Source: Deltaproteobacteria bacterium (lineage in GTDB: Bacteria; Desulfobacterota; Desulfobulbia; Desulfobulbales; Desulfobulbaceae). Taken from it: a DNA stretch of 35,569 nucleotides. The notes under the pieces were generated by a model. That model was not told the origin of the DNA, searched no databases, and was given only the letters and a program-made list of their open reading frames with translations. The position numbers were made by a program, and so were the translations under genes. The stretch covers positions 1-35,569 of the forward strand of contig JAJRQC010000045.1 in the NCBI GenBank assembly GCA_024280455.1, read 5' to 3'. This document shows positions 27,120 through 35,569 of the stretch, piece after piece (position 1 is the stretch's first letter; every line of letters begins with the position of its first letter).

Positions 27120-27800
27120 TTGCGCAACCTGAACAGGTACAAAATATTACAAAAACCCTGGCTGCCCTATGTCGCCCCCTTTGTTCTGTTTTTACTGTTG
27201 ACCGAACCGGGCCGCTTTTTCCCGGCCGCTGTCCCCTATCTCTATATTGCCAAAACTTTTCTGGTCGGCACTCTGATCTGGTTCTGGCGCCACAGCTATG
27301 CGGCGGACTTTACCGGCGGCCTCACCTTTTCCGAACTGCTGACTTCCATTGGTTGCGGCCTGCTGGTGCTGGTGCTCTGGATTGTGCCGGAAGGGTATCT
27401 CTTTCAACTGGAGCAAAAATCCGTTTTTGATCCTCAAGGACTGGGCCAATCACAGGCCGCAGTCATCGGCTGGATCAGCATTCGTCTGCTGGGGGCGGCA
27501 CTGATCGTGCCGATCATGGAAGAGCTGTTCTGGCGTTCTTTTCTGATGCGCTATCTGATTGAGCCGGACGACTTTCGATCCGTGCCCATGGGTGCCTTTA
27601 CCTGGCTGTCTGTTGCGGGGGTGGCGATCTTTTTCGGCCTGGAGCATAACCGGTTGGTTGTAGGTGTCATTGCCGGGCTGCTCTACGGCCTGTTGCTGAT
27701 CCGGCAGAAAAAACTGACCGGCGTCATTCGGGCCCACATGGTCACCAACCTTGGTCTGGGGGTGTATGTTGTATCGACCGGGAGCTGGTGGTTCTGGTGA
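27120..27800 (+). CDS. CPBP-family intramembrane protease, exosortase-associated type
   Basis: This 226-residue polytopic protein begins with TTG (27120). It has the CPBP (CAAX protease and bacteriocin-processing) motifs EELFWRSFLMRYL, FFGLEHNRLVVGVIAG and HMVTNLGLG, supplying the conserved Glu-Glu, Arg and His residues of these glutamate intramembrane proteases. The N-terminal part (LPYVAPFVLFLLLTE, YLYIAKTFLVGTLIWFWRH) resembles the CAAX-protease-related family found with PEP-CTERM/exosortase systems. No exosortase or PEP-CTERM gene is in the window. The substrate is unknown. A ribosome site GAGGGAA lies just before the start. Confidence 0.8.
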   Translation: MRNLNRYKILQKPWLPYVAPFVLFLLLTEPGRFFPAAVPYLYIAKTFLVGTLIWFWRHSYAADFTGGLTFSELLTSIGCGLLVLVLWIVPEGYLFQLEQKSVFDPQGLGQSQAAVIGWISIRLLGAALIVPIMEELFWRSFLMRYLIEPDDFRSVPMGAFTWLSVAGVAIFFGLEHNRLVVGVIAGLLYGLLLIRQKKLTGVIRAHMVTNLGLGVYVVSTGSWWFW

Positions 27801-28682
27801 TGGTTGTGATTTTGACCCCGACGAATACGCTCTTGTTGATCCCCGCGCAGCAACCCCGTCATACATACAACCTCCTTCCAGATTTCGGCTCCCCGATAAC
27901 AGCATTCAGGGCTGACTGAGACCGACGAGGTCCGGTATACGTCATACATTTGTCAAATTTCCCGACACCTATTCCTTGGAGATTTTTCTATGGTCCGTTC
28001 AGGTAAGATTGATACGGCGAGAGCAACCAGACTGTTTGAACAAATGCGGGATGCAGTTGTTACCGGAAAAATACAGGAAAAGAGAAATGATGAAGTTGTA
28101 CTATAGCCGAACAAACAGCTTACCGCTTCAGCACAATCAGGAGGCCACAAAGTATATCTGGTTGATGACCTTGCGCTACCGGAGATGGAAAAGGAAAAAG
28201 AGCTGCCTGGATAGGCTGGGCATTTGACCTATAAAAATAAGACAATCAACTTATTGTCGGGAAGGGACAGTGTATGGTTTTATTGTGTGATGGCCTCGTA
28301 AAAAGTCAAAACGAACTTTGTATGACATGGAAAAACAACAGGTTAAGACCTCTCCGCCGTCGGTGGTGAGGCTTCTCGGAGTCTCACTAGTTCGCTTACG
28401 GGAGTCTCGTTGTACTCGCTATCTACGACACCGACAATTTTAAAAAGCTGTAACTCTTCAGGCAGCGCAAAAAGCTCCTGAGCCAGGGGACTGATTTTGC
28501 AGAACGGTCAGGTAAGCGTAAGGTCGGAGCCGTCCGGCTGTTTTTCAACCACGGCGATAGAATGATTTCCGCAAGCTGCAAGAGATCATCGAATATTTCC
28601 TGCCATGACAGGAAAAAAAATTCAGCCCCCTACACGAGTTGAATGGCAACCTGAATAGGTACAAAAAACTTTAAAAAATATC
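27801..28682. other. Long intergenic region with gene and repeat debris
   Basis: No intact gene is supported. A 38-codon frame at 27990-28106 (MVRSGKIDTARATRLFEQMR and on) has GGAG nine bases upstream but no family I recognise. GATGGCCTCGTAAAAAGTC at about 28290 looks like a dispersed-repeat boundary. A short hairpin with T-run, AGCCG-TC-CGGCT then GTTTTT, lies at 28528-28545. Near the right end CAACCTGAATAGGTACAAAA (28651 on) nearly copies the start of the protease gene at 27124. The region looks like a scrap zone of past insertions. Confidence 0.5.
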
Positions 28683-29441
28683 ATGCCAGATACACTGATG
28701 CTCTATACCGGCGCAATGACACTCGGCGCTTTGCATGCTTTTGAACCCGGCCATGGCAAAACCCTGATATCTGCCTACATGGTCGGTTCCCGCGGCAGCT
28801 CCTGGGACGGTATCGCTCTTGGGGCTATTGTTACCTTTACTCATACATTCAGCGTTATCCTGCTCGGCCTGGCTGCCAAAATCCTTTCCAAGTCCTACTC
28901 TGACACGGAACTGCATAACTGGCTCGGCCTGGTTTCCGCCACAATCATTCTGATAGTCGGCATCTGGATGCTTAGACAGCACCTGTGGGGAAATTCTGGT
29001 TATCACCATTTTCATCTTTTCGGCCAAGAGCACAGCCACGCAACTCACCAAGATCACGCTCACGATCATGATCATAGCCACGACCATGGCCATAAACATG
29101 ACCAAGATGGAAATGCTCAAACGGTCAACAGTAAATGGCATCTTCTTTTACTTGGAATTTCCGGAGGGATCATCCCCTGCCCTGCGGCCATCGCTATCCT
29201 GTTGACAGCAGTTGCGTCAGGGCGGATTGCCCAGGGACTGAGCGTAACAATTTTCTTCAGCCTTGGACTTGGACTGGTGATGATGGGTATCGGCCTTACC
29301 GTGTCCCGACTCGGTCGACTTACAGAGAAAATTACCGAAAATTTAAAAATCGCCAGGCGGATGGGCGTGGTAAGCGCTGTACTCATTACCTCGCTCGGTT
29401 CCTATACTTTATTTAATTCCATCCAAAATATCTGGTTTTAG
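28683..29441 (+). CDS. NicO/RcnA-type nickel-cobalt efflux permease
   Basis: The 252-residue membrane protein has the family signature HAFEPGHGKT at 18-27, a second conserved segment TFTHTFSVILLG, a cytoplasmic His/Asp-rich loop at 108-140 (HATHQDHAHDHDHSHDHGHK) and GGIIPCPAAIAILL at 161-174. Such proteins export Ni(II) or Co(II), with the His loop binding the metal. It ends tail to tail against the ABC operon, overlapping its last gene by four bases. It is opposite in direction to a nickel/peptide-class uptake operon, which supports a metal theme. Confidence 0.88.
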   Translation: MPDTLMLYTGAMTLGALHAFEPGHGKTLISAYMVGSRGSSWDGIALGAIVTFTHTFSVILLGLAAKILSKSYSDTELHNWLGLVSATIILIVGIWMLRQHLWGNSGYHHFHLFGQEHSHATHQDHAHDHDHSHDHGHKHDQDGNAQTVNSKWHLLLLGISGGIIPCPAAIAILLTAVASGRIAQGLSVTIFFSLGLGLVMMGIGLTVSRLGRLTEKITENLKIARRMGVVSAVLITSLGSYTLFNSIQNIWF

Positions 29442-31177
29442 GATTTAAGCCGCATTGAGCACATTGACCCAGCTGCGGCAATCTCCAACAGGGCACGGGT
29501 ATACGGGTGGCGTGGATGGGTAATGATTTTCGAAGTCTGTCCTGTCTCGACAATGCGGCCGTTCCGTATAACCGCCATCCGATCACTTACTTTTCTGGCC
29601 AGAGCAATATCATGGGAGATAAAGAGAAGGGCAAGACCCTTTTTTTCCTGCAAATTTAACAGATATCGAATTATCTTTTCCTGAACGCTTGGGTCAAGGG
29701 CTGAAGTTGGTTCATCGGCAATCAAAAGCCTAGGTTCCAGGGCCAGAGCTCTGGCTATCGCAACTCTTTGTGCTTCCCCACCACTCATGTGGTGAGGGTA
29801 ACTTTGCAGGAAGATTTTGTTATTTGGCAGTTCAGCTGCATTAAGTACCTTCCGTACCTGATCGTCCCGGTCAGCCGACCGGCCGATTTTCTGGATAGCC
29901 AGTGGTTCTCCAACAGCCTGCAGCACGTTCATTCCGGGATTGATGGATTCCATGGGATTTTGGCAAATCATCTGGACTCTGTTGTAAAAATTTTTATCCC
30001 GCTTACCGACGGTTTTTCCTTCAAGAAGGATCTCGCCGCCATCCTCATGGACCAATCCCATTATTGTCCTGGCCAGAGTGGTTTTCCCGGAACCGCTCTC
30101 ACCGATCAGCGCCAGTGTCTCACCTTCTGCAAGAATGCATGATACATCCTGCAGGACTTTGGTTGAACCAAAAGAGGTGCTGATATTACGGCACTCAAGC
30201 AGGGGAATGACGCCGCCCCGATGACAGGCAATCAGATGACGTTTATCTCCCTGTAAAATTGGCTGCCGATCCTTGCAGATGCTTATGCTCTGGGTGCAAC
30301 GCGGTTGAAAGGAGCAGCCGTCCTGCAGCCATTCACTTCTTCCCGGAATCCCCTGGAGATCCTTTCCTCTCATCATATCGGGAAATGACCTGATGAGTCC
30401 CCTGGTATATGGATGTCGAGGTTTTTGCAGCAGTTCCCTGGATCGGCCGTATTCAATAACGCGCCCTTCATAGAGAACGGCAGTCCAATGAGAAAGCTGA
30501 GCGGCAACCGACAGATCGTGGGTGATAATTATGGCAGACCGGCCCTGGATGCTTTTTTTGAGCAACCGTATTATGGTAGCCGTTGTTAACGGATCCTGTA
30601 GTGCCGTTGGTTCATCCAAAATCAACAGATCAGGCGAGTTCACCATGGCAATGGCGATAAGAGCCCGCTGTTTGGCCCCGCCGCTGAGTTGATGGGGAAA
30701 AGCAGACCATTTGTCGCGATCCAGCTCTACGCTGACAAGGACATCCTCCACCCATTGAGCCATATTTTTTTTAGGCAGGAAAGATTTATGTACTTGGGCT
30801 GCTTCCGCAACCTGATCCTTTACCTTGAGTACAGGATTCAAGGCATTTGCCATGCTCTGAAAGACCATGGCAATTTCCCTGCCACGCAATTTTTGCAGCT
30901 CGTTAAGTGGTAGTGCCAGTATGTCTCGATTCTTAAATGCAATCTCTCCACTGACTTGTCCCCGACTGAGACCAAGGATACTTAAGCCAAGGGTTGTCTT
31001 GCCTGCCCCGGACTCACCGATAACTGCCAGTGGTTGATCAGGCGTCAGCTCAAGGTCAATCCCCTGCAGAATACTCTTTTCTCCATAGTTGACCTTAAGT
31101 CCTCGTATCTGCAAGACAGGTTGATCAGTGACGTGTTCTGCAACCATATTTTGGTTAAAATTCACTTTGGCATTCAT
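29438..31177 (-). CDS. Fused double ATPase of a nickel/peptide ABC transporter
   Basis: The 579-residue protein has two complete ABC domains. The first has Walker A GESGAGKTT, signature LSGGAKQR and Walker B LLILDEPTAL; the second has Walker A GESGSGKTT, signature MSGGEAQR and LLIADEPTSALDP. Between them is the oligopeptide/dipeptide-type C-terminal motif with cysteines (GCSFQPRCTQSISICKDRQP), which binds an iron-sulfur cluster in some relatives. It is equivalent to DppD plus DppF (or NikD plus NikE) in one chain. I start at ATG 31177, five bases after the permease stop; the longer frame overlaps that gene. Confidence 0.9.
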   Translation of the reverse strand: MNAKVNFNQNMVAEHVTDQPVLQIRGLKVNYGEKSILQGIDLELTPDQPLAVIGESGAGKTTLGLSILGLSRGQVSGEIAFKNRDILALPLNELQKLRGREIAMVFQSMANALNPVLKVKDQVAEAAQVHKSFLPKKNMAQWVEDVLVSVELDRDKWSAFPHQLSGGAKQRALIAIAMVNSPDLLILDEPTALQDPLTTATIIRLLKKSIQGRSAIIITHDLSVAAQLSHWTAVLYEGRVIEYGRSRELLQKPRHPYTRGLIRSFPDMMRGKDLQGIPGRSEWLQDGCSFQPRCTQSISICKDRQPILQGDKRHLIACHRGGVIPLLECRNISTSFGSTKVLQDVSCILAEGETLALIGESGSGKTTLARTIMGLVHEDGGEILLEGKTVGKRDKNFYNRVQMICQNPMESINPGMNVLQAVGEPLAIQKIGRSADRDDQVRKVLNAAELPNNKIFLQSYPHHMSGGEAQRVAIARALALEPRLLIADEPTSALDPSVQEKIIRYLLNLQEKKGLALLFISHDIALARKVSDRMAVIRNGRIVETGQTSKIITHPRHPYTRALLEIAAAGSMCSMRLKS

Positions 31178-31182
31178 AAGAA

Positions 31183-32028
31183 TTATCTGTTTCCGGCAGG
31201 CAGCAGACGGGGGTCGGAGATTGTTTCCAGGGCAAAGCCGAGCAGCGCCAGGCCTGTGATCGTCATGGATAAAAGCAGCCCGGTGGGCAGCATCCACCAT
31301 TTCCAGACATCAAGATAGGTGTATCGCAGAGCATGCTGCAACATGGAGCCCCAGCTGATCAGGGTCGGATCGGAAACACCCAGAAAGGAAAGTCCGGCTT
31401 CCATAAAAATTGCCCGTCTCCCATGCTGGACAATAACGGCAGACAATATAGGGCCAAGCAACGGTAAAATATGGCGTACCATCAGGTAGGTTTCGGAAGC
31501 ACCAAAGGTACGGGCCGCTGAAATATACCCCTCTTCCTTGAGTGAAAGAATCCGAGCTCGGAAAATGCGTGCCGCCTGTGGCCAGATTAATGAGGCAAGC
31601 AGGATAATCAACAAGGAAATTCCGGGGACCAGATATGCTGAAGCCAGAATTGCAATAAGTACCGCAGGCAGCACCAGCAGGGCGTCCACAAATCTCATGA
31701 CCACCTGGTCATAGAGACCGCCGCATAAGGCTGCGCTACCGCCCACGACAAGGGCGGTTAAGGTGGCAAGCAGAGCAACGCCGCCTCCGATCAGCAGCGA
31801 CGTCCGTGCTCCATACAGCAGACGGGTCCAGATATCCTGACCGACATCGTTTGTGCCGAGCCAGTAGCTGCCTGAGGGCGGTGCAAAAATACTGCCGCTG
31901 TATTCACCGGGCAGATAGGGTGAAAGCAATGGCGCCGCCAGGGCCGGCAGCAGCACTAATAAAATAAGCCCGATTCCGGCCCTTCCCATCCCGTTATTTT
32001 TTAACAGGGTTTTGTAGTTATCATGCAT
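31183..32028 (-). CDS. ABC transporter permease, DppC/NikC type
   Basis: The 281-residue protein has about six membrane spans. It has the N-terminal DppC pattern (LLSPYLPGEYSG, YWLGTNDVGQDIWTRLLYGARTSL) and the EAA loop (EEGYISAARTFGASETYLMVRHILP) that docks to the ATPase. I chose ATG 32028, preceded by AGGGTGG, giving an eight-base overlap with the other permease. It forms the channel together with the DppB-type subunit. Confidence 0.9.
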   Translation of the reverse strand: MHDNYKTLLKNNGMGRAGIGLILLVLLPALAAPLLSPYLPGEYSGSIFAPPSGSYWLGTNDVGQDIWTRLLYGARTSLLIGGGVALLATLTALVVGGSAALCGGLYDQVVMRFVDALLVLPAVLIAILASAYLVPGISLLIILLASLIWPQAARIFRARILSLKEEGYISAARTFGASETYLMVRHILPLLGPILSAVIVQHGRRAIFMEAGLSFLGVSDPTLISWGSMLQHALRYTYLDVWKWWMLPTGLLLSMTITGLALLGFALETISDPRLLPAGNR

Positions 32029-32989
32029 GGGCCACCCTGGGGTCAAATCTGGTATAGAGCAGATCAACCAGCAAATTGATGACCAGTACCATAAGGGTCA
32101 TCATCAACAATATTCCCTGGATCATCGGGTAATCACGGTTCAGGAGGGATTCATAGAGCAGATTACCGAGACCTGGATAGGAAAAAACACGTTCGACAAA
32201 GAGGGCACCGGTGATAATTGATGCCATCTGGGTACCAATCAGAGTCAGAACCGGCAGCAGAGAATTTCTCGCACTGTGATGATACCGGACTTTACATTCG
32301 CTGCAGCCCTTTGCTCTTGCGGTCATGATATACGATTCTTCCATCTGCATGACCATAGAGTTCCTGGTCAGCAGATAAATACCCGGTATTCGAACCAGGA
32401 TGAAGGTACCAAGGGGAAGGGCCAGGTGGTGCAGTATATCAATCACCAGAGAAAAACCTGTTTCACCGCTATAGGGCGTTACAGCTCCGGCCAGCGGAAA
32501 AATTGCCAGCAGGACCCCGAACAGTAACAGGAGCAGAATGCCCATAACAAAATCAGGAAAACCATTGAGCAACATCAGGCAGGTGAGTAATGATCTGTCC
32601 AGCCTGCCGCCACGACGGGAGCCGGATTCAATCCCCAGCAGGATGCCGAATAGGGCAGAAATTATGAAAGCCGATCCCACCAGAAGCAGGGTCCACGGCA
32701 GGGCTTTGACAATAACTTCAGCCACCGGAGCATTATAGGCATACGATTCACCCAGGTCACCGTGTGCCAGTGCTCCCCAGAAGGCGACAAACTGCTCAAA
32801 AAGAGTTTTGTTCAAGGCGAATCGCTCAATGAGTTCTGCCTGCAGTTGCGGCGTCATCACAACCAGGGCCTCGTCTCCGTACAGGGCCATCAGGGGATCG
32901 CCGGCCATCATTTTCGGCAGGATAAAACAGAGGGTCAAAATAAGCAGAAAGGCTGTCAAGTAGGTGAGCAGTATTTTTATTTTTCCCAT
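32021..32989 (-). CDS. ABC transporter permease, DppB/NikB type
   Basis: The 322-residue protein has the DppB N-terminus (ILTLCFILPKMMAGDPLMAL, FALNKTLFEQFVAFWGALA), six spans, the EAA loop (EESYIMTARAKGCSECKVRYHHSARNS, here in its usual place) and the ending NLLVDLLYTRFDPRV. Its start at ATG 32989 follows AGGGG by ten bases and leaves a 38-base gap to the solute-binding gene. Cys residues in the loop (GCSEC) are unusual and might be metal-sensitive. Confidence 0.9.
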   Translation of the reverse strand: MGKIKILLTYLTAFLLILTLCFILPKMMAGDPLMALYGDEALVVMTPQLQAELIERFALNKTLFEQFVAFWGALAHGDLGESYAYNAPVAEVIVKALPWTLLLVGSAFIISALFGILLGIESGSRRGGRLDRSLLTCLMLLNGFPDFVMGILLLLLFGVLLAIFPLAGAVTPYSGETGFSLVIDILHHLALPLGTFILVRIPGIYLLTRNSMVMQMEESYIMTARAKGCSECKVRYHHSARNSLLPVLTLIGTQMASIITGALFVERVFSYPGLGNLLYESLLNRDYPMIQGILLMMTLMVLVINLLVDLLYTRFDPRVAHA

Positions 32990-33027
32990 GACTGTGCAGC
33001 CCCTGTTATCTTGAGACGGTGTCCATG

Positions 33028-34665
33028 TCAATTGTCCATGTCAACAAAAGAGAGCTTATTTAAGGGCAGCGGCACCCCGATGGCTATTCCCTGGTTTGTG
33101 TAAAAAAGGTCGGCGCTGTTGTCATGAGCCCAGAACCAGGTTGGATAATACAGTGGCAGAGTCGGCATCTCATAGGCATAGAGCTCCTGAATCTCTCCGA
33201 GCAGTTTTTTTCTCTTCTGTTCTCCGGTCTCACCGGTTTGCTGCTGCATCAGTACGTTAAGCTGCTTGTTCTTTTCATAGCGAGAGCTGTTAAAGCTTTT
33301 GCCTCCAATGAACCTGTTGACAGATGCCGGATCACCGCCCAGACCTCCATGGCCGCTTAAGGCGAGATCAAACTTCCAGTTTTTGATCATTGCATCAAGG
33401 GTCTTGGGGTCAAGACTTCTCAGGGTAATCTTAATCCCTGCCAGGGCCAGCTGGTCTCTGATCAGTTCAGCTTCCCGTTCGCCGGGATGGCCCTGTGTTC
33501 GCTGACCACTGCCGCTCATCAACAATTCAAACTGCAGCAGTTTGCCGTCTTTTTCATAGAACCTGTCTTTTTTCACATAACCAAGGCCCTCAATGATGCG
33601 ACTTGCCCTGTTCAAATCATAGGGGTCGTCATCCGTCACCTTGCTGAACCAGCGGTTATCAGACGGCAGCAAACCATTACCGCCCGCCAAGGCAAATCCT
33701 CGTTGGCAGATATCAACAAGGGCCTGCCTGTCGATAGCCGCAGCCAGGGCATGGCGGAATTGCCGATTGGCCAGGATTCCTTTCTTATGGTTTATTGTCA
33801 TTTTTGCTACCCAGTCATGGGGGCCGGCCAGGACCGTGAATCCCTTCTGCCTGAGGCTGTCGGCAATTTCTCCGGGAACCTGGCCCGCATTTATCCGGCC
33901 GCGCTCCAGGGCGGTGGCATACATTTCCTGTCGCATTTTTATGAACCTGATCCGGTCAAAAATCGGACGTCCCATACGGTAATCGGAATTGGCCTGGTAC
34001 AGATAGGTTCCCTGCTGTTTATTGTAGTCAACGACCTTGTAGGGACCTGTGCCGATCAAGGCAACGCTTTCACGAAAGGTGACCGGTGAATCAATGTTCC
34101 CCATGATATGCTCGGGCAGGATCGGCATGGTACCGGCAATATTGTGCAGAAAAGGGGCATACTTTTTATTCAGCACCAGCTTTACGGTATGGTCATTGAT
34201 CACCTCGACCCTTTTCACGACACTGCCATCCACCCATTTATAGGGATGTTTCTTGATGTATTCAAAGGTGAAGGCAACATCCCGGGCGGAAAACGGCTGT
34301 CCGTCATGCCAGCTGACGCCTTTTTGCAGAGTAAAGAGATAGCTGTTTTCTTCTTTATTAAATTGCCAGCTGCTTGCCAGATCAGGAACCAATCCTTTTG
34401 TGTCCTTCCACAGCAAGGTGTCAAAAACAAGACTCATCCGGATATAGCCAGGTCCCCGCGGATAATGTCCATATGGTGAAGGCATGCCCCAGTCACCTGT
34501 TTGATCTGCAATGGTATACATTGAACCGGCTCCTGCAGGTTGTATGTACACAATACTTGCCATAAGCAGACAGCAGATGCTCAATAAAGACCTTTGTAAA
34601 GCCGACGGGTACGAACTGTTCTTTCTTGTCATGTTGTTCAATAGTGTTTTTAGCGTATTTTTCAT
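33028..34665 (-). CDS. Family-5 periplasmic solute-binding protein (nickel/peptide class)
   Basis: The 545-residue protein carries an N-terminal signal sequence (about residues 12-47, ending near QPAGAG) and the SBP family 5 fold (LVPDLASSWQFNKEENSYLF, GVSWHDGQPFSARDVAFTFEYI, GTGPYKVVDYNKQQG, FRHALAAAIDRQALVDI). Family members bind peptides, nickel chelates, opines or sugars; the ligand cannot be read from the sequence. I chose ATG 34665, 28 bases after the FmdE-like gene. A 13-bp tandem repeat around the stop codon (33022-33047) may have altered its last residues. Confidence 0.88.
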   Translation of the reverse strand: MKNTLKTLLNNMTRKNSSYPSALQRSLLSICCLLMASIVYIQPAGAGSMYTIADQTGDWGMPSPYGHYPRGPGYIRMSLVFDTLLWKDTKGLVPDLASSWQFNKEENSYLFTLQKGVSWHDGQPFSARDVAFTFEYIKKHPYKWVDGSVVKRVEVINDHTVKLVLNKKYAPFLHNIAGTMPILPEHIMGNIDSPVTFRESVALIGTGPYKVVDYNKQQGTYLYQANSDYRMGRPIFDRIRFIKMRQEMYATALERGRINAGQVPGEIADSLRQKGFTVLAGPHDWVAKMTINHKKGILANRQFRHALAAAIDRQALVDICQRGFALAGGNGLLPSDNRWFSKVTDDDPYDLNRASRIIEGLGYVKKDRFYEKDGKLLQFELLMSGSGQRTQGHPGEREAELIRDQLALAGIKITLRSLDPKTLDAMIKNWKFDLALSGHGGLGGDPASVNRFIGGKSFNSSRYEKNKQLNVLMQQQTGETGEQKRKKLLGEIQELYAYEMPTLPLYYPTWFWAHDNSADLFYTNQGIAIGVPLPLNKLSFVDMDN

Positions 34666-34693
34666 CTTGTTTTTCTTCAGTGGAATCGACACC

Positions 34694-35233
34694 TCACCAT
34701 CCGCGTGAATAATCGGCAAAACAATCCAGACAGAGTTTCTTGTCATCGTTCAGCCGGATTTTATGCTCCGACGCACTTTCACCACATTGCTCACAGATAA
34801 TGCTATTGAAAATCCGCGCCCGCTGGGGAAGTTCAAAAGAAGGCTCACTGAATGTCAGTATTTCCTCGTCAGGCGCATCCAGGATATAGTTTTGGAATTG
34901 TTCTTTATCCCAATCCTGATCCTTTTTGATCTGTTTGTTGAAATTGATCCGGACTTGACTCTTGTCTCTGCGGTTGAAAAAACTGAAGGCGTGTTTGCCG
35001 GTATCACGGTACAGCAGGTTTCCCTTGCCCATTGTGCAACCGGTTAATACCTGCACCGCATCAACACCACAGGCATCATTTTCAGTGACGCAAACTATTT
35101 CTTCGTCTTCTGAAAAGGTAACACCTAATCGGTCAGCTGCTGCCAGGGCAATCCGATAACCAATGGCCAGCCCCGGACAGGAATGGCCATGAAACTCCAC
35201 ACAGTGATCCCAGGCGGTTTGAGGAGCACACAT
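34694..35233 (-). CDS. FmdE-like metalloprotein leading the ABC operon
   Basis: This 179-residue protein has the FmdE core: HGHSCPGLAIGYR with His15, His17 and Cys19, ENDACGVDAVQVLTGCTMGKGNL with Cys55 and Cys66, and RDTGKHAFSF. It also has a C-terminal zinc ribbon with Cys147, Cys150, Cys168 and Cys171. FmdE was named for formylmethanofuran dehydrogenase, but this family is widespread without that enzyme. It starts at ATG 35233 with the strong ribosome site AAGGAGA and is the first gene of the transporter operon. A role in binding or handing over the transported metal is inferred from its cysteines and position. Confidence 0.88.
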   Translation of the reverse strand: MCAPQTAWDHCVEFHGHSCPGLAIGYRIALAAADRLGVTFSEDEEIVCVTENDACGVDAVQVLTGCTMGKGNLLYRDTGKHAFSFFNRRDKSQVRINFNKQIKKDQDWDKEQFQNYILDAPDEEILTFSEPSFELPQRARIFNSIICEQCGESASEHKIRLNDDKKLCLDCFADYSRGW

Positions 35234-35569
35234 TATTCGCTCTCCTTGTTAAAAATTATTATTTTTGTGAAACGCAGTGAAAAAAGTTTACAACATGATG
35301 CCTGCCCGGACAATGAGCGGAACTCCTCATTCCTATAGGGAAAAATCCCGGGCGTAACAGGATGATATTCAGCTCGGATATGTCATGAATCGCCGTGGAA
35401 TCAAAGGACAAGCATGGTCAGGCGTGAATTTAACACCGATTTTCGCGTAACGTTTCCCACTAACATTTAACCCGTCACCTCCTTTCCCTGCTCCCCCTTA
35501 TGCCGCCTCACTCCACGGATTCTCTCGAATCCAAATTTTTCTGACCGATCTATTTGTTATACAACATGA
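35234..35569. other. Leader region of the FmdE/ABC operon
   Basis: No gene is seen on either strand. It should hold the operon promoter and any metal-responsive site. AAGGAGA at about 35239-35246 is the ribosome site. The 10-mer TACAACATGA occurs at 35289-35298 and again at the window end, 35560-35569. I found no recognisable nickel, cobalt or molybdenum cofactor riboswitch core by eye. Confidence 0.45.

Follow-up and report, generated by a model that had tools for sequence, protein, structure and literature searches.

We analysed a 35,569-nucleotide stretch of DNA, the window, which is the entire contig JAJRQC010000045.1 (G000:C52 in our set) of assembly GCA_024280455.1, a Deltaproteobacteria bacterium of the Desulfobulbaceae. 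It carries an operon in which a gene of the FmdE family (PF02663) precedes an ATP-binding cassette (ABC) importer with a solute-binding protein of family 5 (SBP5). A gene for a NicO/RcnA-type Ni/Co transporter faces this operon. Our results suggest that the operon is probably the inner-membrane import arm of a TonB-linked regulon for nickel or nickel chelates, with NicO co-regulated. The most interesting points are a common promoter-like element, a candidate two-component system, and an FmdE that seems independent of the importer. The features concerned are the following.

34694-35233, minus strand: fmdE, PF02663 (1.8e-37) and C4 zinc finger PF01258 (4.8e-10); 179 amino acids (aa), 10 Cys
33028-34746, minus strand: SBP_bac_5, the SBP5 gene (Pfam 3.3e-62)
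32021-33031, minus strand: ABC permease, DppB/NikB class (Pfam 2e-40)
31183-32067, minus strand: ABC permease, DppC/NikC class (Pfam 1.4e-15)
29438-31300, minus strand: fused double ABC ATPase with two ABC_tran and two oligo_HPY stretches (Pfam 1.5e-60)
28683-29441, plus strand: NicO/RcnA-type Ni/Co transporter with a His-rich loop (Pfam 3.2e-14); 20 His in 252 aa
35300-35363, minus strand: extended element of the FmdE operon, about 64 bp; core AATGAG-N8-CTCATT at 35312-35331
35308-35313 and 35285-35290, minus strand: putative -35 box TTGTCC and -10 box TAAACT, 17-nt spacer, read by eye
28204-28267, plus strand: weaker copy of the element upstream of NicO; core AATAAG-N8-CTTATT at 28236-28255, two mismatches to the strict core
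28288-28446, plus strand: interspersed repeat between the NicO element and NicO; 51 aligned pieces in the own genome, itself included

The open reading frames (ORFs) and Pfam matches bear out an earlier note on this DNA, according to which a Cys-rich FmdE heads an uptake operon with fused ATPases and a convergent Ni/Co exporter with a His loop overlaps it at the 3' ends; the NicO and ATPase ORFs share 4 bp (29438-29441). The ORF list over-calls some starts: judging from overlaps and a signal-like segment, SBP5 probably begins near 34665 and the ATPase near 31177. The fmdE gene is the single PF02663 match of the own genome, and 336 bp are readable upstream of it.

A gapped-palindrome search was carried out in 37 FmdE and NicO upstream regions, which include the near-duplicates L039/L040 and L154/L155. 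The core AATGAG-N8-CTCATT (at most one mismatch) was found in 14 of them, the FmdE leader of the window included; five shuffles, preserving base composition alone, gave at most 3 regions with the core. The 4.15-Mb own genome has two perfect cores, one in the FmdE leader and one on contig C84. The C84 core has a response-regulator gene on one side and a TonB receptor gene on the other, after which come genes for a DUF4198 protein, a 168-aa protein, a 613-aa protein, and ExbD-like and TonB-like proteins (the last two by eye). Relaxing the pattern to AATRAG-N8-CTYATT gives four copies in this genome (control, 2); two of these are in the window, one before FmdE and one before NicO. Over the 64 bp, the FmdE and C84 copies share 33 of 44 flank positions.

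The core at FmdE lies 79 bp from the gene, and its right half overlaps the putative -35 box; the boxes, as read by eye, suggest a sigma70-type promoter. We also considered the CGGG/CCCG flanks as alternative RNA hairpins. This reading was dropped because a -35-like TTGTnC overlaps the right half and a -10-like box follows after about 17 nt, so that the element should sit upstream of transcription.

A NikR site, which the earlier note had suggested looking for in the leader, did not turn up: the window had 0 matches to a deltaproteobacterial consensus (one spacing, at most 3 mismatches), and in 13 loci a more permissive regular expression gave loose matches only. There are two NikR_C matches in the own genome, one in a stand-alone NikR-like gene and the other among transport genes. 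The latter (L181, G000:C60:50057-50287) has urea-amidolyase-like and taurine/nitrate-type ABC genes around it (by eye) and is probably not a nickel regulator. Cobalamin, NiCo and molybdenum cofactor riboswitches were absent from window positions 34200-35569, and none scored above the gathering score in the 30 of 80 named loci scanned.

The C84 response regulator is of the NarL type, with a receiver domain (PF00072) and a GerE domain (PF00196). Contig C84 ends just past its gene; the partner kinase, known from relatives, has a His-rich sensor segment. Among 96 genomes of relatives, the own included, close homologues of the regulator (E <= 1e-55) were called in 17, with at most 31 first-look candidates scored per genome of up to 139. 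Perfect cores across 57 genomes numbered 26, against 4 for the reversed pattern. The 13 regulator-positive genomes of the family have 96 looser sites (reversed control, 9), each genome at least 2; in 30 of the 46 regulator-negative family genomes, picked by hand, there are 13 (control, 10), and no genome has 2. The association between regulator and sites in the family (Fisher, 2.7e-11) rests on these hand-picked negatives and ignores kinship. The site counts partly depend on the discovery step, since most positive genomes gave loci to the discovery set; G032, with no motif-bearing region in that set, has 6 sites (control, 1).

The extended element (4-5 of 5 flank features) accompanies 52/61 cores in positive genomes and 0/8 in negative ones. 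The 61 cores are those in fetched loci, of the 96 counted, with duplicates merged by flanks and locus-end cores left out; none of the 52 elements comes from G039. As classified by phmmer at 1e-5, with some assignments weak, the first same-strand gene within 900 bp of the 52 elements (window included) encodes a TonB receptor in 15 cases, NicO in 6, FmdE in 5, ExbB in 3, FecCD in 2 and a permease in 2; a NikL-like protein, SBP5, an ABC ATPase, a receiver-domain protein and the major facilitator superfamily (MFS) protein of a YcaO pair occur once each, another 8 are of other kinds, and 6 elements have no such gene. A metal-uptake-type gene lies within 600 bp of 39/64 sites when loci fetched for FmdE or NicO are included, of 22/43 (hand count) in loci fetched for a site only, and of 1/8 in negative genomes. 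In genus g14, taken as the cable-bacteria genus of Ca. Electrothrix scaldis, sites precede TonB receptor, RcnA, FmdE, SBP5 and NikL-like genes. In L041 and L042, FmdE comes immediately after the kinase and regulator genes and has no adjacent importer; in L043 and L049, at least one small gene lies in between. The core is present at L042 and L043. At L219, the element follows the regulator, and no same-strand gene was found behind it. The palindrome is most likely the binding site of the NarL-type regulator, as its distribution suggests.

FmdE and SBP5 are grouped beyond chance, because all seven close SBP5 homologues (E < 1e-119, own included; next best match, 1.5e-25) found in the 96 genomes lie within 4.1 kb of an FmdE gene. 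PF02663 itself is present in 83/96 genomes, and the FmdE beside the close SBP5 of G013, G062 and G084 belongs to another subfamily. Three relatives combine FmdE, SBP5, permeases and NicO (L046 and L048 complete, L036 without an ATPase after the permeases). The same-genus genomes G001-G007, which are partly incomplete, have no close SBP5 and no regulator at the thresholds used, and NicO is limited to a 25% match in G006. Their absence suggests that the SBP5, the regulator and NicO were acquired jointly.

The alignment of 12 clade members was used as query, and the best 80 of 587 relatives were taken as loci; these are mostly from Clostridia, and also from Desulfobulbales, Campylobacterota, Geobacteraceae and Spirochaetota. 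We classified 78 of them (the FmdE of L112 and L140 was missed in ORF picking). On the same strand within 6 kb of FmdE, FecB/FecCD-type importers occur in 40/78, SBP5-type importers in 13/78 and both in 2/78, and an S-adenosylmethionine (SAM) methyltransferase match lies within 3 kb in 24/78. On the FmdE tree of 100 rows (20 SBP5 and 45 Fec labels), the label changes 13 times, against an average of 17 for shuffled labels, and at least five changes are forced by well supported branches. FmdE thus persists through repeated importer swaps, which suggests that it acts after import; FmdE is probably a protein that handles metal or metal chelates whatever the importer.

Genome context, which the earlier note proposed to survey, also brought out TonB, NikL-like, CbiM and nicotianamine-synthase-like genes as partners. 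Relatives of the operon do not keep to peptide or opine genes, and metal genes do accompany them. The earlier reading of the locus as a metal homeostasis unit is well supported by the common element, the gene co-occurrence in relatives and the metal-type partners.

Nickel fits best as the cargo, with zinc and cobalt as alternatives. In both L161 and L165, a NikR-like gene lies close to NicO, joined in L165 by CbiM-like and ATPase genes (all by eye); CbiM occurs in L214, and FmdE follows CbiM in Clostridium carboxidivorans. NiFe-hydrogenase matches are present at several places in the own genome, two of them full length. In G049 (Ca. Electrothrix scaldis), the element, NicO, an ABC ATPase, two nicotianamine-synthase-like genes, a TonB receptor, a methyltransferase-like gene and SBP5-system genes lie on one strand; the two nicotianamine-synthase-like genes are adjacent (L154:4500-6235; PF03059, 76.5 and 92.4 bits). 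RcnA loops in six g14 loci hold 38-56 His (approximate loop bounds), in rough agreement with the 33-53 His given for cable bacteria by Hiralal et al. (2024, PMC11247825), who also describe a nickel cofactor in their fibres.

Two further observations concern metallophores. The nicotianamine-synthase-like pair of L154 stands between RcnA/NicO and the TonB receptor, a possible metallophore pathway. YcaO and MFS genes occur in metal-uptake loci (L035:392-2891; L214:3460-6971, the MFS of L214 by eye), with the element before the MFS-YcaO pair of L214; a metallophore of the ribosomally synthesized and post-translationally modified peptide type is conceivable.

A cargo of zinc, cobalt or several divalent metals, with the rest of the scheme unchanged, seems doubtful to us, though it is the best of the alternatives. 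NicO proteins handle both Ni and Co. In L115, the neighbours of FmdE are ABC-3 and a ZnuA match whose score equals the cut-off, and in G063 (L234) the regulator adjoins a ZnuA-type protein, so that zinc is possible. A published FmdE structure has mixed Zn/Ni in its His2Cys2 site, after a purification that used nickel resin (Axelrod et al. 2010, PMC2954224). However, nickel-type neighbours (NicO, NikR-like, CbiM and nicotianamine-synthase-like genes) are commoner, and the regulon is expanded in the nickel-dependent cable bacteria.

With nickel as cargo, TonB receptors and ExbBD-TonB would carry the metal or its chelate across the outer membrane, and the SBP5 importer with its two permeases and ATPase would move it into the cytosol. 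There FmdE, a dimer-type His2Cys2 metal-site protein with a zinc finger, may receive the metal or help to free it from its chelator, with the SAM methyltransferase working alongside it in many relatives. NicO would be the co-regulated arm for Ni export or buffering. The common element would be a sigma70-type promoter with a 20-bp palindrome over its -35 box, to which the NarL-type regulator is predicted to bind. More speculatively, the FmdE clade and the methyltransferase could be a general means of freeing nickel from imported chelates in the cytosol, whatever the importer, and a NarL-type two-component system for nickel sensing, not described before, would control it through the 64-bp element, with the regulon amplified in cable bacteria for their nickel fibres; we regard this extension as possible rather than likely.

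The window FmdE scores 128.8 bits against a PF02663 cut-off of 22.9. Its metal ligands H15, H17, C19 and C55 are invariant in clade alignments of 12 and 21 members, as are C48, C66 and the zinc-finger residues C147, C150, C168 and C171 of the C-terminus; other aligned FmdE subfamilies have Ala, Val or another residue at position 48. The predicted structure (mean predicted local distance difference test (pLDDT) score, 80.0) has known FmdE structures (2gvi, 2glz, 3d00) as its sole fold matches at E <= 0.001. Although metal-site structures of FmdE are more than 15 years old, we know of no settled function outside methanogens. The earlier note had FmdE capture or insert the metal, which it may do; sensing and chelate processing are the alternative roles.

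In the same order, FmdE genes of other subfamilies adjoin MoCF_biosynth (L064) or lie two genes from a U32 peptidase gene (L070), and L066, L063 and L068 show similar layouts by eye. The family therefore looks functionally split, and the function proposed here is claimed for the present clade only. In G049, a gene downstream of an element (L040:10842-12032) encodes a 397-aa protein that carries an FmdE domain at 221-310 and an N-terminus judged signal-like by eye, and L072 has a weakly FmdE-like gene near FmdE.

FmdE might instead be a metal-responsive regulator or signalling partner that works together with the kinase and the regulator, its core sensing metal and its zinc finger resembling that of DksA/TraR. 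The zinc finger is present, and the arrangements at L041, L042, L043 and L049, where FmdE comes behind kinase and regulator, would suit such a role. Axelrod et al. also proposed metal-ion sensing or regulation for FmdE (PMC2954224). However, FmdE is accompanied by an importer in 55/78 loci, and the same source reports family members without the finger; we consider a regulatory FmdE unlikely, slightly more so than another metal.

Several results weigh against an FmdE-centred nickel regulon, the ZnuA-type neighbour in G063 among them. The absence of the regulator from negative genomes is uncertain. Outside the family, four regulator-positive genomes show no site excess (1, control 5), and three of their regulators resemble the own one more (60-67%) than do those within the family (55-59%); G066, also outside, has a 2-mismatch site after its regulator gene. 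Two perfect cores (control, 1) occur in G013, a regulator-negative genome outside the set of 30, and no metal-uptake gene adjoins either of them. No core was found at L041 and L049 despite the regulator by FmdE, and the flank features of the extended element were chosen by eye on the same sites. Eight of the 13 positive family genomes belong to g14. Because the positives fall mostly in two genera, with the own genome as one further family case, the co-occurrence of regulator and sites is confounded by kinship. NicO is near FmdE in just 5 of the 30 genomes that have a NicO homologue (E <= 1e-10, 96 genomes searched), namely G000, G015, G024, G038 and G055. Neither main importer type was seen in 23/78 FmdE loci, some with short flanks; three of these have other importers, which are CbiM with PDGLE (L097), ABC-3 with the ZnuA match (L115) and an energy-coupling factor (ECF) component (L104). 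Finally, the SBP5 reaches the cut-off of none of the 11 NCBIfam models listed, whether for nickel, metallophores or peptides, and its closest solved relatives are mixed, including Lmo0135, DppA and AppA.

The NikA, NikB and NikC equivalog models gave 116.5 of 393, 179.3 of 447 and 148.3 of 358.45 bits, all under the cut-off, and the CntA model on SBP5 gave 99.4 of 800 bits, far under it. The fused ATPase reaches 350.7 bits against the 318.7 of the NikD equivalog, a whole-protein score spanning both ATPase domains. The predicted SBP5 structure is poor (mean pLDDT, 62.5). An ordinary importer of peptides or organic solutes, its promoter link reflecting a general nutrient regulon, would agree with the peptide-rich SBP5 class and with the solved matches just named. 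We find it improbable, because the SBP5 system is exchanged at the FmdE locus with FecBCD-type and, singly, ABC-3, CbiM and ECF transporters, and because TonB receptor, NikL-like and NicO genes stand under the same element.

The window NicO exceeds the PF03824 cut-off (53.4 against 27.7 bits), has the His-rich loop, and is below the cut-off of the nickel/cobalt efflux subfamily NF007454 (134.6 of 195 bits). NicO and FmdE share a strand in L036, L046, L048 and L038, with NicO upstream; the convergent layout of the window thus looks like a local rearrangement particular to the own genome. That NicO is an unrelated neighbour with a chance match upstream is just as improbable as a peptide importer: its core lies 428 bp from the start with a repeat between, and own-genome cores with at most 2 mismatches are near background (85, control 75), but the flanks share 25 of 44 positions with the FmdE copy, which 0/20000 random window positions equalled, and five elements in relatives have NicO as their first same-strand gene. 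The flanks of the C84 and NicO copies share 22 of 44 positions, a value reached by 6/20000 random positions against the C84 copy.

The longer pieces of the interspersed repeat are mostly 74-84% identical, and it is possibly a non-autonomous mobile element. A CAAX-protease-related gene lies near NicO (27120-27800; TIGR03008, 172 against 81 bits). With a bin contamination of 4.83%, we considered a contaminant contig; the CcmF of the window is 94% identical to that of same-genus G003, so that the contig looks native. The other six same-genus members had no match at 1e-60 in the CcmF search. In-frame TGA codons occur in the 85-94% identical CcmF matches of G003, G012 and G069, and none in the window copy.

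Compared with known systems, the operon shares an SBP5, two permeases and two ATPase domains with NikABCDE under NikR. It differs from it in its fused ATPases, in the FmdE at its head, in scores below the NikA/B/C cut-offs, in its promoter element, and in the absence of matches to the one NikR consensus used. Opine- and nicotianamine-type metallophore systems (Cnt, pseudopaline class) also combine an SBP5-type importer with a TonB receptor. In this they are alike, and nicotianamine-synthase-like genes belong to the regulon of a relative; none was noted among the window ORFs read, for which no whole-window profile scan was made.

The nickel homeostasis of cable bacteria (PMC11247825) has in common the His-loop RcnA, a Nik/Opp/Dpp importer with an upstream TonB receptor, and NikMLKQO. 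The window NicO has a short loop, and its genus, g1, is distinct from g14 and apparently not a cable genus. RcnA/NicO-like relatives were found here in other families of the order, whereas that study found RcnA in no other Desulfobulbales of its set. Its main text contains no FmdE, formylmethanofuran, nicotianamine, motif, two-component, methyltransferase or YcaO. Cable bacteria need nickel for their conductive fibres, and from the regulon described here their probable nickel receptors and metallophore genes can be listed.

Axelrod et al. (2010, PMC2954224) had already stated that metal-ion transporter genes neighbour most genes of PF02663; no report of an FmdE/NarL-type regulon was found among open-licence PMC papers. 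With the FmdE proteins of that study, the present clade shares the FHGHxC motif, the fourth ligand Cys55 and the C4 zinc finger, and it adds Cys48, invariant in the aligned members. What is added here is a common promoter, a regulon, the repeated swapping of importers and a frequent methyltransferase neighbour. The regulon would give FmdE a testable physiological assignment, together with a promoter and a candidate sensor.

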